Assembly: GCA_017858095.1 (NCBI GenBank)
Contig: JAFMCB010000010.1
Coordinates: 1 to 33,486, forward strand
DNA length: 33,486 nucleotides
Origin: Methylophilaceae bacterium
GTDB lineage: Bacteria; Pseudomonadota; Gammaproteobacteria; Burkholderiales; Methylophilaceae
Direction: 5' to 3'
This document shows positions 18,641-32,817 of the stretch, piece by piece (the stretch's first letter is position 1; the number at the start of each line of letters is the position of its first letter). The notes under the pieces are model-generated. The model saw nothing but the letters and a program-made list of their open reading frames with translations. It was not told where the DNA came from and ran no database searches. The translations under genes were made by a program, and so were the position numbers.

Positions 18641-19102
18641 ATGTTTGAATTACTTATCTATATGTTCGAGAACTATTTAAGCGCTCAGAGTAAGCTTGAT
18701 TTCAATAACATGAGCCTTGAATTAGAGGCAGCCGGGTTTGATAATGATGAGATAAAAATTGCCTTTGATTGGTTTACTCAGCTCAAAGTAATGTCTGACA
18801 AAGTGCCTTTAAAATTAAAAAATAGAACAAAGCCTAAGCTGAGAATCTACACTGCTAATGAAAATGAAAAAATTTCACCCGATGCTTTAGGCTTTCTAAT
18901 CTTTCTTGAACAAGCACAAGTTTTAAATGATTACGAACGTGAAATTATCATTGATAGATCGATGGCACTAAATCAAAATTTTATCAGCATTGATGAAATT
19001 CGTTGGATTGTTATGATGACACTTTGGAACAATGGCAAAGAAAATGATTATTTATTTGTTGAGGATGCGTTGTATCAAAAAGAACAATTCAGCCTACATT
19101 AA
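18641..19102 (+). CDS. smg: Smg family protein (DUF494)
   Basis: A 153-residue protein opening MFELLIYMFENYL, the hallmark of the Smg/DUF494 family, with a following segment LELEAAGFDNDEIKIAFDWFTQL and a C-terminal IDEIRWIVMMTLWNNGKENDYLFVEDAL that is also typical. Function is not established; the gene commonly sits beside def and dprA in beta- and gammaproteobacteria. The protein is mostly helical and has no membrane segment. An AAAGG site lies before the ATG. Its stop codon overlaps the stop of the convergent metF gene in a shared TTAA. Confidence 0.9.
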   Translation: MFELLIYMFENYLSAQSKLDFNNMSLELEAAGFDNDEIKIAFDWFTQLKVMSDKVPLKLKNRTKPKLRIYTANENEKISPDALGFLIFLEQAQVLNDYEREIIIDRSMALNQNFISIDEIRWIVMMTLWNNGKENDYLFVEDALYQKEQFSLH

Positions 19103-19932
19103 AGATGCAAATTCTTTATTATCCTGGAAACAGTTTTTGATTTATTCAGTGTGTAAAAATGTATGCTAGGAACTTCATATTGAATGAGGGTTTCACAAAG
19201 CTCAGAAATAACTTCGACGCCATAATCCCTCAAAGAATCCAAATCATCATTAAATCCTTCAAGCTTTAACCTAAGCCATCTTGGTATCTCCGCACCACAA
19301 TTCGAAGCAAATCGGGATAATTGCTTGATATTATAAATAGGCATAATGCCAGGTGTAATTGGAATAGTTATTTTTCTTTTGTCACACTCTTCCATAAATT
19401 TAAAATAGGCATCAACATTAAAAAAGAATTGCGTAATGGCGCCATCAGCACCTGCATCAATTTTTTTCTTGAAATTATCTAAATCTTGTTCGGCTGACAA
19501 CGATTCAGGATGAAACTCGGGGTATGCTGCAACTTCTATTTTAAAAAAGTTTCCCGTTTCTTGTCGAATAAACTCTACCAACTCATTTGCATGATTAAAA
19601 TCACCATCCCCAACAACTCCTGATGGATTATCTCCTCTTAATGCAACTAAATGATTAATGTTTTTTGCTTGATAATTCATAATCAAATCGTGCACTTCAT
19701 CTTTTGAAGACGAAATACATGAGATATGAGGCACGGCATTTGCATTCATTGCTTTAATTTGCATTACCGTCTCCAATGTTTTCTCTCTGGTAGAGCCGCC
19801 TGCACCAAAAGTAACAGAATAAAATTCTGGATTAAAAACATTTAAATTGGTTACAGTGTCTTTTAATTTTTGCACCCCCTCATCGGTACGTGGAGGAAAA
19901 AATTCGAAACTAATTGTGGGTGATTTCGCCAT
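19099..19932 (-). CDS. metF: 5,10-methylenetetrahydrofolate reductase
   Basis: A 277-residue flavoenzyme that reduces methylene-THF to methyl-THF, the methyl donor for methionine synthase. The N-terminus SFEFFPPRTDEG contains the catalytic glutamate, and SVTFGAGGSTREKTL, HISCISSS, LVALRGDNP and GADGAITQFFFNVD are standard MetF segments of the TIM barrel with FAD. It lies three bases after ahcY and so belongs to the same SAH-riboswitch-controlled transcript, which links homocysteine release to its remethylation. The stop overlaps that of convergent smg. Confidence 0.96.
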   Translation of the reverse strand: MAKSPTISFEFFPPRTDEGVQKLKDTVTNLNVFNPEFYSVTFGAGGSTREKTLETVMQIKAMNANAVPHISCISSSKDEVHDLIMNYQAKNINHLVALRGDNPSGVVGDGDFNHANELVEFIRQETGNFFKIEVAAYPEFHPESLSAEQDLDNFKKKIDAGADGAITQFFFNVDAYFKFMEECDKRKITIPITPGIMPIYNIKQLSRFASNCGAEIPRWLRLKLEGFNDDLDSLRDYGVEVISELCETLIQYEVPSIHFYTLNKSKTVSRIIKNLHL

Positions 19933-19935
19933 ATT

Positions 19936-21357
19936 CTAATATCGGTAACTATCCGGTTTAAATGGTCCTGTTTTATTCACACCAATATAGTCAGCTTGTT
20001 CTTGTGTCAGCTGCGTTAGCTGAGCATTAAGATTTTTTAATTGTAAGATAGCCACTTTCTCATCTAAATGTTTAGGTAACGTGTAGACTCCAAGTGGATA
20101 TTTTTCTGTATTTTTAAACAATTCAATTTGTGCAATAACCTGATTGGCAAACGATGAGCTCATCACATAACTTGGATGGCCGGTGGCACAACCAAGATTC
20201 ACTAATCTGCCCTTAGCCAATAATATAATTTTCTTCTTATCAGGGAAAATCACATGGTCTACTTGTGGCTTAATCTCTTCCCATTCGTATTTTTCCAATG
20301 ATTTCACATCAATTTCATTATCAAAATGACCGATATTACAAACAATTGCCTCGTTTTTCATCTTGCACATATGATCATGATTGATGACATTCAAATTTCC
20401 TGTAGCCGTCACAAAAATATCAGCGTGCTCAACTGCATAATCCATTGTAACAACACGATAACCTTCCATAGCTGCCTGCAGCGCGCAGATAGGATCAACC
20501 TCCGTTACCCAGACTTGTGCAGAAAGCGCTCTTAACGCCTGTGCTGAACCTTTACCCACATCGCCATAGCCTGCAACCACCGCCACCTTACCAGCGATCA
20601 TGACATCAGTCGCCCTTTTAATTGCATCCACTAATGATTCGCGGCAACCATATAAATTATCGAATTTTGATTTTGTCACTGAATCATTTACGTTAATGGC
20701 AGGAAAGACTAATTCACCGTCTCTAAACATTTGATATAAACGGTGTACACCCGTCGTGGTTTCTTCAGTTACACCTTTGATGTGCTTAATTTTTTCAGAA
20801 TACCAATTTGCATTAACAGCTAAACGATTTTTTATCGCTTTAAATAAAGCTGTCTCTTCCTCTGAGGCGGGTTTATCTAAAACTGTAATATCTTTCTCAG
20901 CTTTCACTCCAAGATGCAATAACAATGTTGCGTCGCCACCGTCATCTAAAATCATATTTGTGAAATGATTATTTTCCCATTCAAAAATACGGTGTGTAAA
21001 TTCCCAATATTCATCGAGATTCTCACCTTTAAAAGCAAAAACGGGGATTCCTTGTGCCGCAATTGCTGCTGCCGCATGATCTTGCGTGGAGTATATATTG
21101 CAAGAAGCCCAGCGAACCTCAGCCCCCAAATCGACCAATGTCTCAATTAATACCGCGGTTTGAATGGTCATATGTAACGAACCAGTAATTTTGGCACCCT
21201 TGAGTGGTTTCGTTTGAGCATATTCTTCACGAATTGCCATTAAACCCGGCATTTCATGTTCAGCGATTGCAATTTCTTTACGGCCATAATCTGCAAGATT
21301 AATATCCGCAACAACATAATTATCTTTTGTAAGAGTATTTTCGGTCACAGTATTCAT
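19936..21357 (-). CDS. ahcY: S-adenosylhomocysteine hydrolase
   Basis: A 473-residue NAD-dependent enzyme that splits SAH into adenosine and homocysteine, relieving product inhibition of methyltransferases. Visible features are the substrate region [30 protein letters not shown], the NAD-binding [16 protein letters not shown], the catalytic [13 protein letters not shown] and the C-terminal [12 protein letters not shown], whose Lys/Tyr reach the NAD site of the neighbouring subunit. It carries the roughly 40-residue insertion usual in proteobacterial AhcY. The upstream 5' UTR contains an SAH riboswitch with its own promoter. A TAGGA ribosome binding site precedes the ATG. Confidence 0.98.
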
Positions 21358-21418: not shown

Positions 21419-21428
21419 GTTAATAAAA

Positions 21429-21485
21429 GTGAACGCAGTTTGACTTTACCGAGCCTAGGAAGGAATCTTGCAGCGTTCCTCGGTA
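21429..21485 (-). ncRNA. SAH riboswitch (ahcY 5' UTR)
   Basis: Read on the minus strand, the RNA begins ACCGAGGAACGCTGCAAG and ends with CTAGGCTCGGT then GCGTTCAC. P1 forms between ACCGAG (21479-21484) and CTCGGT (21448-21453). The pseudoknot forms between GAACGC (21473-21478) and GCGTTC (21431-21436). These, with the GCUGCAA core and the AGGCUCGG segment, match the known SAH (ahcY) riboswitch consensus of beta- and gammaproteobacteria. It is expected to raise ahcY-metF expression when SAH accumulates. Confidence 0.93.
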
Positions 21486-21490
21486 GACGA

Positions 21491-21531: not shown

Positions 21532-22686
21532 TTAAGTAATAATTAACTGAGATTTCTTATCCAGTCTTTCCCAAGAAAATTCTGGTTCATCTCGACCAAA
21601 GTGACCATAGGCTGCAGTTTTTTTATAGATTGGCCTCAGCAAATCTAACATTTCAACAATTCCTTTTGGTCGAAGGTCAAAATTATCCGTAACAAGTTTT
21701 GCAATTTTTTCTTCCGATAACTTGGCTGTACCAAAGGTATCTACCATGACAGAAGTTGGTTCTGCAACACCAATGGCATAGGAAATTTGTACAAGGCAAC
21801 GCTCCGCAAGTCCAGCAGCAACAATATTTTTGGCAACATACCTAGCCGCATATGCCGCAGATCGATCAACTTTGGAGGGGTCTTTGCCAGAAAATGCACC
21901 TCCACCATGAGGCGCTGCTCCGCCATAGGTATCAACAATAATCTTTCTTCCTGTTAAACCACAATCGCCCTGTGGGCCACCAATAACAAACCGTCCTGTT
22001 GGATTAATAAGAAATTTGATATCACCTTGAATTAAATTTTTCGGTAAGATGGGTTGGATAATCTCCTCAATAACAGCCTCACGTAATGTCTTTAAATCAA
22101 TATCAGGATGATGCTGTGTGGATAAAACAATGGTATCAATGCGTTTGGGCTTGTTATCTTCATATTCAAGGGTGACTTGAGATTTTGCGTCAGGTCTTAA
22201 CCAAGACAAACGTCCATCTTTCCTCAGCAAGGCTTGTCTCTCCACCAATCGGTGTGCGAGCCAAATCGGCAGCGGCATCAATTCAGGTGTGTCATTGCAA
22301 GCATAGCCAAACATTAATCCTTGGTCGCCGGCGCCCTGATTTTTAGGATCGTCCATGGCATGATCGACACCTTGAGCAATGTCGGGTGATTGATGACCGA
22401 ATTTTGTAAGGACGTCACAAGTCTGATAGTCAATGCCGACATCCGCATTATCATAACCAATGCCTTTTAATGTCTCACGAGCAATTGATTCATAATCGAC
22501 ATCAGCATTGCTAGTAATTTCACCAGCTAATACAACAAGATTTGTTGCCGTCATTGTCTCGGCAGCAACCCGTGCATTCTTATCTTGTTCTAGAATGGCA
22601 TCTAAAATAGCATCTGAAATTTGATCGGCAACCTTATCTGGGTGCCCCTCGGAAACGGACTCCGAAGTGAAAAGATAATTTTTCAT
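21532..22686 (-). CDS. metK: S-adenosylmethionine synthetase
   Basis: A 384-residue enzyme that makes SAM from methionine and ATP. Signature segments are present: [37 protein letters not shown] (ATP-binding GAGDQG loop as NQGAGDQG), [21 protein letters not shown] and the P-loop-like [19 protein letters not shown]. Length equals E. coli MetK. The base composition is noticeably less AT-rich than in the ntrY-ntrX region, as expected for a highly expressed gene. It is upstream of, but separated by 174 nt from, ahcY-metF. Confidence 0.98.
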
Positions 22687-30189: not shown

Positions 30190-30458
30190 GATTTCGGCGG
30201 AACAAAGCCTGAGGCTTGATCGGCACCTTCACCAAAGAAATAAGCTTCAGTTTGCTCCGTGAGGTATTTTCTTGCTTGAGGATCAACCAAGCTCAATCGA
30301 TTTTCATTCACCAACATGGTTTGATGTTTTAACCATTCCGCCCAGGCTTGCTTAGAAACATTTTCAAAAATTCTTTTTCCCATTTCTCCAGGGTATGGAG
30401 GAAAATCTAAGCCCTCAGCTTCTTTTTTTAGTCTCACACAAAATACAGTTCGTGCCAT
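30186..30458 (-). CDS. Fe(2+)-trafficking / oxidative damage protection protein YggX
   Basis: A 90-residue protein with the full YggX pattern: [24 protein letters not shown] including the conserved Cys7, then [29 protein letters not shown] and a C-terminal YFFGEG. YggX protects Fe-S enzymes against oxidation and may move iron. An AAAGGA ribosome binding site lies seven bases before the ATG. In many betaproteobacteria it is found alone, as here. It is convergent with phoU and divergent from the B12 riboswitch unit. Confidence 0.94.
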
Positions 30459-30569
30459 TAATTATCCTTTATCATGGGTTTTCATTCATTGAACTGAATT
30501 TTAACAGATTCTATTCTTACTATGAGAAGCATCTTTTCGATTTTTTTCAAAAAAAACTAATTTTTAAAA

Positions 30570-30597
30570 TTGGTCAAAATATTTATGCTACTATCAA
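30570..30597 (+). promoter_or_regulatory. Candidate promoter of the cobalamin riboswitch/btuB transcript
   Basis: TTGGTC (30570-30575) and TATCAA (30592-30597) are 16 bases apart; the predicted start near 30604 is just before the aptamer. The -10 box is weak. The 30459-30864 interval between yggX and btuB holds this promoter, the riboswitch aptamer, two hairpins and a leader ORF; I see nothing else in it. Confidence 0.4.
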
Positions 30598-30607
30598 AAT
30601 TGATTCA

Positions 30608-30771
30608 AAGGTGATTTTGTTTTGTTCAGAAACAAAATTTAAACGGGAAGCGTATGAAAGTTACGCACTGCCCCCGCAACGGTAATTGAGTGTGGATAAA
30701 TCAATCAATAGCCACTGAGAGTTTTCTTGGGAAGGCGATTTATCTAGTCTCATCAGTCCGGAGACCGGCCT
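30608..30771 (+). ncRNA. Cobalamin (B12) riboswitch aptamer
   Basis: The conserved elements appear in order: an opening stem ATTTTGTTT/AAACAAAAT near 30614-30638, GGGAA (30645-30649), hairpin GCGTA/TACGC, the L5 region CTGCCCCCGCAACGGTAA (30668-30685), AGCCACTGA, GGGAAGGCG and the B12 box AGTCCGGAGACCGGCC (30755-30770). These match the cobalamin riboswitch consensus. The aptamer is followed by a B12-type TonB receptor gene, so binding of cobalamin should switch off receptor synthesis, probably at translation since no intrinsic terminator is visible. Confidence 0.96.
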
Positions 30772-30781
30772 AAAAAATCAA

Positions 30782-30803
30782 AATATTGCGGGGAGGCAAT
30801 ATT
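30782..30803 (+). promoter_or_regulatory. Hairpin 1 with Shine-Dalgarno in its loop (putative L13 for the leader ORF)
   Basis: AATATTGC (30782-30789) pairs perfectly with GCAATATT (30796-30803) around the loop GGGGAG (30790-30795). The loop plus the next G forms a strong Shine-Dalgarno nine bases before an ATG at 30806. GCGGGG (30788-30793) is complementary to CCCCGC in the L5 loop of the aptamer (30671-30677), as in known L5-L13 kissing loops. Confidence 0.75.
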
Positions 30804-30805
30804 CA

Positions 30806-30841
30806 ATGAAATTCGTTTTAGCCTTTCCGATTTTTTTATAG
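30806..30841 (+). CDS. Putative 11-residue leader peptide upstream of btuB
   Basis: ATG-TAG frame encoding MKFVLAFPIFL. It has a near-perfect ribosome binding site (GGGGAGG, nine-base spacer) located in the loop of hairpin 1. The peptide is hydrophobic with one lysine, like the start of a signal peptide, but terminates before any cleavage region and is in a different frame from btuB. A ribosome stopping at 30839-30841 would cover and melt hairpin 2 (30843-30860), so it may couple translation to btuB. Expression is not proven; it could also be a relic of an old btuB start. Confidence 0.5.
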   Translation: MKFVLAFPIFL

Positions 30842-30842
30842 C

Positions 30843-30860
30843 CTAATCGGGGAGGATTAG
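30843..30860 (+). promoter_or_regulatory. Hairpin 2 with Shine-Dalgarno in its loop (putative L13 for btuB)
   Basis: CTAATC (30843-30848) pairs with GATTAG (30855-30860) around the loop GGGGAG (30849-30854), identical to the loop of hairpin 1 although the stems differ. GGGGAGG lies nine bases before the btuB ATG at 30865. CGGGG is complementary to CCCCG in aptamer loop L5, so kissing would hide the btuB ribosome binding site when B12 is bound. Confidence 0.75.
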
Positions 30861-30864
30861 TTAT

Positions 30865-32817
30865 ATGTGGCAAAAAAGATTTTTTTGCATACTATTCATA
30901 GCACCACAGCTGCTGTCTGCAGAAGAAGATATTAAGACTGACAATATCATTGTTCTTGAAGATCCCAGCCAGCTGCAAGAAGCCACTTCAACTTACGCAA
31001 AAGAAATTTATACCGTTACTGATATTGAAAAATCCGGTAGTACCAACCTTTTTGATTACTTATCACAACATACCTCATTGAATATTCTGCCCAGTTATGG
31101 TGACAAAACAAAGCCTCTCATTGACATGCGTGGTTATGGTATTGAAGCCGGCTATCAAAATATTGTAATTAATGTTGATGGGCAGCGACTGAATAATATC
31201 GATATGAGTTCACAATTGATTGGGTCTATTCCTCTCCACAGTATTAAAAAAATTGAAGTTATTCGCGGATCCGGTTCAGTTCAATATGGTGATGGTGCAA
31301 TGGCAGGGGTTATCAATATTGTGACAAAAAATTATTCAGGCGCACAAATTAAAACAACATTTGGCAGCGCGGGGCAAGAAATCTATTCGGGGAGCTATGG
31401 CTATAGCAGTGACTTTTTTAATTTCTCATTCGACATACATGATGAGAAGTTAGACGGTTACAGTGATGCAGATACCATTGGTAATAAAGATAAAATAAAT
31501 AATACCGCACAAAATTTAAAAATAAATTTTATACCGACAGAGGATCTTATCCTTAAGTTTGGTCTTAATCATGCTAGAAACAATAATTACTTGGTTGGCG
31601 CTCTAACAAAAAATGAATTCAAGTTAAATCCAAAACAAAATAGTGGCAATACTTATGCAAATTATGATTGGGATATAGATAAATACTCGTTGGGCTTAGC
31701 TTATAAATTTAACAACAATACGTCTTTGACTGTTGATTATTATAATGAGGATAAATCGCAGAATGCCGTTACTTATGGTTACGTGTATGACTATGATTCA
31801 GAGGCTTTTAATATAGCAATACCTTATGAAACTGAAAATCTGGCAATCTTAACAGGCATTCAGGTATTTGATGGCAGCAGAAAAACAGCCACTGGAACCG
31901 CGACCAAAGATAACGAAGCGATTTTTGTTGAGACGGAATATCGTCCACAATTCTTAAATCAGAAATTACTGGTTTCTGCAGGATTACGCTTTGAAAATGT
32001 TAAGTATACTTGGAACGATGCCATAGCCCCACTTAATGATGAAGAAGAATTAGAAGCATGGGACCTAGGTCTAAACTATGAAATAAATAAAAATTTAAAT
32101 ATATTTACAAATTATAACCATGGTTTTCAAGCGCCAGATGTAGATCGATTTTTTAAAGCAAATTACCCTCCGCCATCATATAGCTATGCAGGTTCAGAAT
32201 TTAATGCTTTCATTGATCCCGCTAAATCCGATACTATAAATCTCGGATTAAACCTTATTAATAGTTATAACCATCTCCAATTTAGCCTTTTCTACTCGAA
32301 AATTAAAGATGAAATTGTTTATGATCCTACTCAGGGGATCAATACAAATATTGAAAATTCAAAGAAATACGGTGTGGAGATATTTAACAACCTTAATCTC
32401 TCAAAAACTATTAACTTAAACTTGAGTTATACCTATGTAAAAGCTGAAATAGGATCCAACAGTCTGGGATTTACAAAAGGTAAAGATATGCCTGGAGTAC
32501 CGCAGCAATCAATTATTGCAAATGCTAATTACAAGTTTCTTTCGGCTGGTAATTTAAATATTAATCATGTTTGGAAAGAGAGCACGTTCAACATGGCAGA
32601 TTTTGACAACAATGGGCCAAGCCAGCCCGCCTTCATTTCAACCAATCTTTCTATTAATTATGAATTTGGTTCTATTAGCCAAATAGAATCAATCAAAATA
32701 TTTACAGGCATTAATAATATATTTGAACAGGAAAACGGAATACAGACGAATGATGATGCCATTTACCCTTTCAATTTTACAAGAACTTGGTTTGCTGGGA
32801 TTGAAGCAAATTTTTAA
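30865..32817 (+). CDS. btuB: TonB-dependent vitamin B12 receptor, BtuB-like
   Basis: A 650-residue outer-membrane receptor. A signal peptide (KR start, hydrophobic core, cleavage likely after LLSA, residue 19) is followed by a TonB-box-like TDNIIVLED segment, a plug domain (about 40-165) with LFDYLSQHTSLNI, DMRGYG, NVDGQRLNN and RGSGSVQYGDGAMAGVINIVTK, and a 22-strand-type barrel ending in aromatic FAGIEANF. Plug motifs are standard for BtuB/FepA-type receptors. Substrate specificity for cobalamin is inferred from the riboswitch upstream and the B12-transporter-like gene downstream. It is slightly longer than E. coli BtuB (614). Confidence 0.9.
   Translation: MWQKRFFCILFIAPQLLSAEEDIKTDNIIVLEDPSQLQEATSTYAKEIYTVTDIEKSGSTNLFDYLSQHTSLNILPSYGDKTKPLIDMRGYGIEAGYQNIVINVDGQRLNNIDMSSQLIGSIPLHSIKKIEVIRGSGSVQYGDGAMAGVINIVTKNYSGAQIKTTFGSAGQEIYSGSYGYSSDFFNFSFDIHDEKLDGYSDADTIGNKDKINNTAQNLKINFIPTEDLILKFGLNHARNNNYLVGALTKNEFKLNPKQNSGNTYANYDWDIDKYSLGLAYKFNNNTSLTVDYYNEDKSQNAVTYGYVYDYDSEAFNIAIPYETENLAILTGIQVFDGSRKTATGTATKDNEAIFVETEYRPQFLNQKLLVSAGLRFENVKYTWNDAIAPLNDEEELEAWDLGLNYEINKNLNIFTNYNHGFQAPDVDRFFKANYPPPSYSYAGSEFNAFIDPAKSDTINLGLNLINSYNHLQFSLFYSKIKDEIVYDPTQGINTNIENSKKYGVEIFNNLNLSKTINLNLSYTYVKAEIGSNSLGFTKGKDMPGVPQQSIIANANYKFLSAGNLNINHVWKESTFNMADFDNNGPSQPAFISTNLSINYEFGSISQIESIKIFTGINNIFEQENGIQTNDDAIYPFNFTRTWFAGIEANF

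Follow-up and report, generated by a model that had tools for sequence, protein, structure and literature searches.

Cobalamin riboswitches are among the commonest riboswitches, and the literature accessible to us describes their control through one kissing contact between L5 and L13. In the Escherichia coli btuB riboswitch, P13 takes part in a pseudoknot needed for repression and is accompanied by P14, an anti-Shine-Dalgarno (anti-SD) and an anti-anti-SD element (PMC11162775), and in env8 the P13 loop holds the ribosome-binding site (RBS) and kisses L5 (reviewed in PMC10907184). In Mycobacterium tuberculosis, the L13 hairpin of metE contains an anti-anti-TIR (TIR, translation initiation region), and that of ppe2 lies between anti-TIR and TIR and controls an upstream open reading frame (uORF) that relays to the gene, with reinitiation at an overlapping AUGA (PMC11260477). 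Dual expression platforms combine a terminator with an RBS (PMC2258182). Here we report on a cobalamin riboswitch that precedes a gene for a TonB-dependent receptor, probably BtuB, in a 33,486-nucleotide (nt) stretch of DNA (the window; contig JAFMCB010000010.1) from a Methylophilaceae bacterium (GCA_017858095.1) with a 1.15 Mb, 88.9% complete genome. The leader carries two hairpins complementary to L5, and on sequence grounds we read the locus, with somewhat better than even confidence, as a translational OFF switch in which the aptamer and its two-hairpin platform most likely form an inherited architecture.

The aptamer lies at 30592-30787 on the forward strand, to which coordinates refer unless stated otherwise, and matches RF00174 over model positions 1-189 of 189 (107 bits against a gathering score of 31.5, E 4.4e-26), being the sole RF00174 match in the genome. 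Its L5 loop, CCCCCGC at 30671-30677 by direct reading and the RF00174 match, is the presumed kissing partner of the hairpins that follow. Hairpin 1 (30782-30803), which is P13-like and has counterparts in the family, has an 8-bp stem with arms AATATTGC (30782-30789) and GCAATATT (30796-30803) around the loop GGGGAG (30790-30795); hairpin 2 (30843-30860), likewise read directly, has a 6-bp stem with arms CTAATC (30843-30848) and GATTAG (30855-30860) around an identical loop (30849-30854). The two stems are unrelated, and each loop is at once an L5 complement and an SD, SD1 in hairpin 1 and the receptor gene's SD2 in hairpin 2. Both hairpins thus present the env8-type arrangement of an SD within an L5-complementary loop, docking itself being presumed, and the second of the pair adjoins the SD of the gene.

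A sequence-only reading of this stretch had described the B12 aptamer and both hairpins in these terms, and the direct reading and the RF00174 match bear it out. The proposed ability of both loops to pair with L5 is also supported, hairpin 1 offering 6 bp (GCGGGG) and hairpin 2 offering 5 bp (CGGGG), with plain-duplex energies of -14.8 for loop 1, the stronger, and -10.2 for loop 2. The loop-to-ATG spacing is equal for both hairpins, as that reading had stated, but amounts to 10 bases, its figure of nine applying only when counted from the end of GGGGAGG. The GGGGAGG motif occurs three times in the window against 0.77 expected, an excess that is weak alone (three were reached in 6/100 shuffles). 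Between the hairpins lies a predicted 11-codon leader ORF, MKFVLAFPIFL (30806-30841, direct reading), with its ATG at 30806, coding sequence at 30806-30838 and a TAG stop at 30839-30841; as had been claimed, the stop ends one base before hairpin 2, and it lies 23 nt before the receptor ATG.

The sole close relative among the compared leaders of the genus belongs to a sister locus (L004), whose receptor is 75% identical over 301 aa (the next, 51%). Both hairpins are unchanged in L004, and the loop-to-loop distance is 59 nt in the window and in L004, compared to 75-138 nt in 94 measured family leaders. L004 has six bases between loop 2 and the receptor ATG, so the equal spacing noted by the sequence-only reading is not conserved. 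A DNA pattern search for two GGGGAGG hairpins gave two matches: a Methylophilaceae metagenome-assembled genome that is identical to L004 for 1 kb, and a run of GGGGAGG repeats in Parabacteroides.

The recurrence of both hairpins was assessed first within the family, where cobalamin riboswitches are present in 27/31 genomes of the genus and in 168/187 family genomes searched. The sample that was read comprised 184 riboswitch loci from 152 genomes, part of a longer list, with some of its places (one of them at a contig edge) and the weaker matches outside it left out. Using labels that denote BLAST links to family proteins ("btuB-like", "nrd"), 41 of the 184 loci precede ribonucleotide-reductase-type (nrd) proteins; a Pfam check of two identified one as ribonucleotide reductase (L035) and the other, truncated, as its ATP cone only (L071). 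Among the 143 other loci, BLAST links place 128 in a single group together with the window's receptor, and the aptamer ends in AGACCGGCC, as in the window, in 121, in AGACCTGCC in 12, in ATACCGGCC in eight and in neither form in two, the AGACCGGCC type having been set from the aptamer end after the sequences were seen. With a fixed detector, at least two L5-complementary hairpins were found within 220 nt in 103/121 AGACCGGCC leaders, compared to 0.5% of dinucleotide shuffles; these 103 are also the total for all 143 non-nrd loci. At least two hairpins were scored in 1/41 nrd-type paralogs and 0/12 AGACCTGCC leaders.

These results were mirrored by a hairpin-first test in which the strongest small hairpin 45-160 nt past the aptamer was picked without regard to its loop. 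The loop was L5-complementary in 96/120 AGACCGGCC family leaders, representing 19/22 genera, compared to 1.7% of mononucleotide shuffles, and in 1/41 nrd leaders, 0/12 AGACCTGCC leaders, 27/63 btuB-like leaders of the order and 18/42 of the class, with mononucleotide shuffles at 2-7% across sets. An earlier run of this test on loci preselected for two hairpins is not relied on, and the values given come from its repetition on unselected sets.

Beyond the family, the order (87 loci) and class (49 loci) samples consist of better-scoring matches and are not random. The detector found at least two hairpins in 35/63 btuB-like leaders from other families of the order, against 3.7% of dinucleotide shuffles, and in 21/42 from other orders of the class, against 2.9%; other leaders yielded 1/4 nrd and 3/20 remaining leaders in the order, and 0/1 and 0/6 in the class. 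The loop sequences in these samples differ from those of the window (e.g. GGAGG, GGGTG), and some may pair less well with L5. In the corresponding loci (L185-L320), hairpin 1 loops are often GCGGAGGGC or GCGGCGGGC, hairpin 2 loops resemble GCGCGGGTGNGCGC, and L5 is CTGCCCCCGC in 123/136. The duplication, which the sequence-only reading had considered unusual, is therefore anything but that among AGACCGGCC leaders of the family, and it is frequent in the order and class samples. On this comparative evidence, paired hairpins appear to be a common, long-conserved design in related bacteria.

Support for selection on the structure, as the sequence-only reading had argued, comes from hairpin 2, whose stems change and covary around a constant loop. 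The leaders were anchored on a CGGG-type motif, with pairing not required, in 115 family leaders; this count leaves out the window, L004 and four more of the 121 loci, each of which lacks one of the anchors. Across these 115 leaders a constant 6-nt loop is held in fixed register within a changing stem, and pairs 2, 4, 5, 6 and 7 are formed in 108, 111, 111, 105 and 66 leaders, compared to partner-shuffled expectations of 87, 85.5, 97, 57.6 and 43, respectively. Pairs 1 and 3 showed no clear excess over partner shuffles in the same leaders. For hairpin 1, only pair 6 clearly exceeds shuffles in the genus of the window (17/18 against 10.3), and 26 loci fit neither register.

Folding of the window leader points to an anti-SD segment at 30822-30832, within codons 6-9 of the leader ORF, whose possible partners are SD2 (11 bp) and SD1. 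The anti-SD:SD2 hairpin has a predicted energy of -14.3 kcal/mol and pair probabilities of 0.90-0.97, compared to -4.8 kcal/mol for hairpin 2 alone, and the unpaired probability of SD2 is 0.03 in the full leader. The anti-SD:SD1 duplex reaches -16.5 kcal/mol, yet the default fold favors anti-SD:SD2. Default folds contain little of hairpin 2, with pair probabilities of 0.09 for the isolated platform and 0.02-0.03 for the full leader, since SD2 is engaged with a portion of the ORF. For hairpin 1 the probability falls from 0.91 in the isolated platform to 0.23-0.27 when the whole leader is folded; in the latter fold GCGGGG and L5 form an ordinary helix (up to 0.71) at the cost of the hairpin 1 stem. 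When the ORF was masked, as it would be by ribosomes, hairpin 2 formed (0.97) and the unpaired probability of SD2 rose from 0.08 to 0.85; masking of loop 1 alone, in imitation of L5, left the anti-SD:SD2 helix complete, and so did masking of the initiation site alone (1.0). The window leader is thus predicted to contain an anti-SD able to sequester the SD, as in E. coli btuB, and relatives support this.

In relatives, the C/T-rich segment between the hairpins pairs better with its own SD region than with the SDs of other genera, in 17/19 genera of the family (p 2e-5), 23/30 in the order (p 1e-5) and 17/21 in the class (p 0.003). The comparison drew only on two-hairpin loci whose start had been located (94, 30 and 21 in family, order and class); its samples were seeded by Python hash, and a rerun may not reproduce the values exactly. 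Three controls, two using coding regions and one using shuffled SDs, were null at all three levels, and the own-SD effect exceeded each of them in the family and the order (p 0.016 or less). This per-level test with matched controls replaced an earlier pooled own-versus-foreign comparison, which was confounded, its coding-region control also being shifted (p 0.0009). Per-locus shuffles of the inter-hairpin segment, which is C/T-rich, against the SD gave a weak signal, with 26% of 94 loci at p 0.05 or less. Pairing of the 5' arm of hairpin 1 with the anti-SD, which would make that arm an anti-anti-SD, is supported in the family (16/19 genera, p 0.002), and in the order it reaches p 0.014 relative to one control. 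The own-SD-specific anti-SD pairing and the family pairing of the hairpin 1 arm together indicate that, in relatives, hairpin 2 normally caps a putative SD-sequestering stem and that hairpin 1 corresponds to P13.

Several observations weigh against this interpretation. In the recurrence data, seven of the 121 AGACCGGCC leaders scored one hairpin and 11 none (10 of these 11 being, by eye, one type with mismatched stems), and two hairpins were detected in 0/8 ATACCGGCC leaders, all of which belong to the genus of the window. The hairpin 1 stem is nearly invariant, with no clear excess of pairing in its main register (76 loci), and L5 is CTGCCCCCGC in 181/184 family loci, so that covariation of L5 with either loop is without power. 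The anti-SD of the window beats shuffles only weakly (89/2000 reach its minimum free energy), that of L004 does not beat them (584/2000), and neither locus is among those of the anti-SD:SD comparison. At the class level, the own-SD effect relative to the three controls gave p 0.076, 0.035 and 0.009, one of which is not significant. Finally, the pairing of the hairpin 1 arm with the anti-SD reaches only p 0.31 against one of two controls in the family and is unsupported as such in the order (p 0.64) and the class (p 0.97).

Building on the sequence elements, the recurrence of both hairpins, the covariation of hairpin 2 and the specific anti-SD:SD pairing in relatives, we propose that hairpin 1 would act as P13, with the anti-SD between the hairpins and hairpin 2 at the SD of the receptor gene. 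With B12 bound, L5 would kiss hairpin 1, so that the anti-SD stays available to the SD and the receptor gene is silenced; without B12, the anti-SD would be drawn off the SD. Hairpin 2 would provide a second docking place for L5, adjoining the SD and, in the window, on the SD itself. We infer the kissing, the sign of the regulation and any translation of the ORF. The window would represent a compressed version of this plan, in which each loop doubles as an SD and a short ORF encloses the anti-SD, and ribosomes entering at SD1 and elongating would unwind the anti-SD:SD2 helix and pass on to the receptor gene. The ORF-held anti-SD, the masking results and the preference of L5 for loop 1 make plausible a relay of B12-blocked SD1, silent ORF and hidden SD2 in the window, which we take as a derived form of the family architecture.

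A tentative alternative, well short of even probability, takes this relay as the whole mechanism: B12 would act only on the leader ORF, L5 would block SD1, and the receptor would be made only after leader translation, as in ppe2. Without B12, the 11 codons would be translated and the anti-SD:SD2 helix melted, with termination 23 nt short of the receptor start codon. For ppe2, a relay through a uORF under the control of a B12 riboswitch has been demonstrated (PMC11260477), and the window presents the corresponding arrangement by sequence, a uORF with its SD in an L13-like hairpin, with an ATG that is not conserved. Pairing of SD1 with the 16S tail is strong (-11.0 kcal/mol), SD1 is 0.78 unpaired in the platform alone, the anti-SD lies wholly within the ORF, whose masking frees SD2, and the ORF stops one base before hairpin 2. 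The folding agrees with the suggestion of the sequence-only reading that translation of the leader may free the btuB site, the anti-SD that conceals SD2 being part of the ORF. On the other hand, SD1 is only 0.42 unpaired in the full-leader fold, and with just the initiation site masked the anti-SD:SD2 helix does not open, so that the relay would require elongation.

The comparative data on the ORF are also mixed. L004 has no ATG at the place of the leader ORF and offers a possible TTG start in another frame, opening 14 codons whose stop falls inside hairpin 2; the stop position favors the relay, but frame and peptide differ between the two species, and conservation of the ATG or of the peptide is not supported. 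That reading had named random absence of hairpin 1 or of the leader ORF from relatives as evidence against itself; hairpin 1 withstands this comparison and the leader ORF does not. An ATG lies 3-14 nt past the hairpin 1 loop in 12/121 leaders and any start codon in 74/121, which makes one such ORF unsurprising, and among nine leaders with GGAGG in the hairpin 1 loop the window alone has an ATG there. We rejected the leader ORF, for now, as a conserved coding element, the ATG being confined to the window among 19 AGACCGGCC-type leaders of the genus (a count that excludes eight ATACCGGCC leaders) and start codons being common at this position. Selection on the ATG is therefore unproven and the ORF may be accidental, and the hydrophobicity of the peptide would be what T-rich codons give. 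In another genus of the order (L204, L209, L323, L324, L326), a GGGGAGG hairpin 1 loop is followed by a near-identical 11-codon ORF (MMTCILTAPAA-like). This ATG-initiated ORF, a point in favor of the relay, is found in five of eight riboswitch-bearing genomes (18 searched), the other three being without it; the sequences are, however, very similar to one another, and by eye the ORFs end before the presumed anti-SD. In a subclade with ATACCGGCC aptamer ends (L003, L007, L009, L010, L012, L014, L015, L018), inspection by eye places an SD-like TGGGAG directly ahead of the start codon, where it may form the loop of a weak hairpin, another possible case of an SD serving as a loop.

It is equally doubtful, though conceivable, that hairpin 2 never contacts L5, only hairpin 1 kissing, and that its G-rich loop is kept for start-region accessibility, a protein site or anti-SD pairing. 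Known cobalamin riboswitches are described, in the sources accessible to us, with one L5-L13 kiss. Moreover, hairpin 2 offers 5 bp to L5 against the 6 of hairpin 1 and scarcely forms in default folds of the window. Against this stand the hairpin-first test, in which the loops that fit L5 far outnumber those of shuffles, and the change of the stem around a 6-nt loop in 115 leaders, the anchor itself requiring the CGGG motif. CsrA sites are of the GGA type, and the fifth loop base of hairpin 2 is T in 67/115 leaders and A in 42/115, so that such a site is not general. A division of labor in which hairpin 1 controls transcription termination and hairpin 2 translation is improbable for the window, which has no terminator-like site at 30400-30900 and no T-run after hairpin 1, leaving hairpin 1 as a terminator there without support, even though by eye a T-run follows hairpin 1 in L005, L008, L011 and L016, and in L019-L023, L025 and L026 a T-run comes after an outer stem (imperfect in L020) that encloses hairpin 1; both arrangements suggest an extra transcription terminator in some species of the genus.

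Returning to the two-hairpin OFF switch, a broader conjecture, to which we give clearly less credence than to that architecture, is that btuB-type riboswitches across the class confront each L5 with two competing kissing hairpins, L5 docking on hairpin 1 during transcription and then being handed to hairpin 2, with the window species forming a relay. If true, this would amount to two-stage control by a single aptamer, and in the streamlined window species, with both docking loops serving as ribosome entry sites, leader translation would open the second of them. Because btuB-type leaders repeatedly carry another hairpin complementary to L5 at the SD, L5 has two possible partners, and models of repression by a single kiss may be incomplete for part of the class. 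Judging from the sequences compared, this widespread, putatively kissing-type second hairpin outweighs the leader ORF in interest.

The receptor gene (30865-32817, with its start ATG at 30865) encodes 650 aa with Pfam plug and barrel domains. BtuB equivalog models score about 74 bits on it, far under their cut-offs of 600-836, and the substrate is therefore inferred from the riboswitch; the name btuB is thus probable, leaning on the riboswitch and weak homology. The genome encodes the B12-dependent methionine synthase MetH, and no match to MetE was found in it at 88.9% completeness, which fits a need for B12-responsive control. A second riboswitch of the window, an S-adenosylhomocysteine (SAH) riboswitch (RF01057, 42.4 bits) at 21424-21487 on the reverse strand, lies directly upstream of the S-adenosylhomocysteine hydrolase gene (19936-21357), with MetK (21532-22686) before and MTHFR (19099-19932) after, a methionine-cycle setting.

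Compared with the described systems, as presented in the accessible portions of the sources, the locus shares with E. coli btuB (PMC11162775) a cobalamin aptamer, a P13-type hairpin facing L5 in a presumed pseudoknot and an anti-SD predicted to sequester the SD of a probable B12 receptor gene, and adds a leader ORF, an SD in each loop and, at the SD of the gene, another hairpin complementary to L5. Each of its hairpins resembles env8 in placing an SD in a small-hairpin loop complementary to L5, but env8 has one such hairpin instead of two, and the accessible part of the review mentions neither an anti-SD nor a leader ORF for it (PMC10907184). A search of the open-licence PMC literature, outside which most subscription papers lie, returned no description of a second L5-complementary hairpin. 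The two placements of L13 found in two separate riboswitches, metE and ppe2 (PMC11260477), have similar counterparts here in tandem on one aptamer. As in dual expression platforms (PMC2258182), one aptamer is associated with more than one control point, with the difference that here two kissing-type hairpins face the same L5 loop. With docking loops, ribosome sites and anti-SD coinciding, the window is a compact form that may stand midway between simple masking of an SD and a relay through a uORF.

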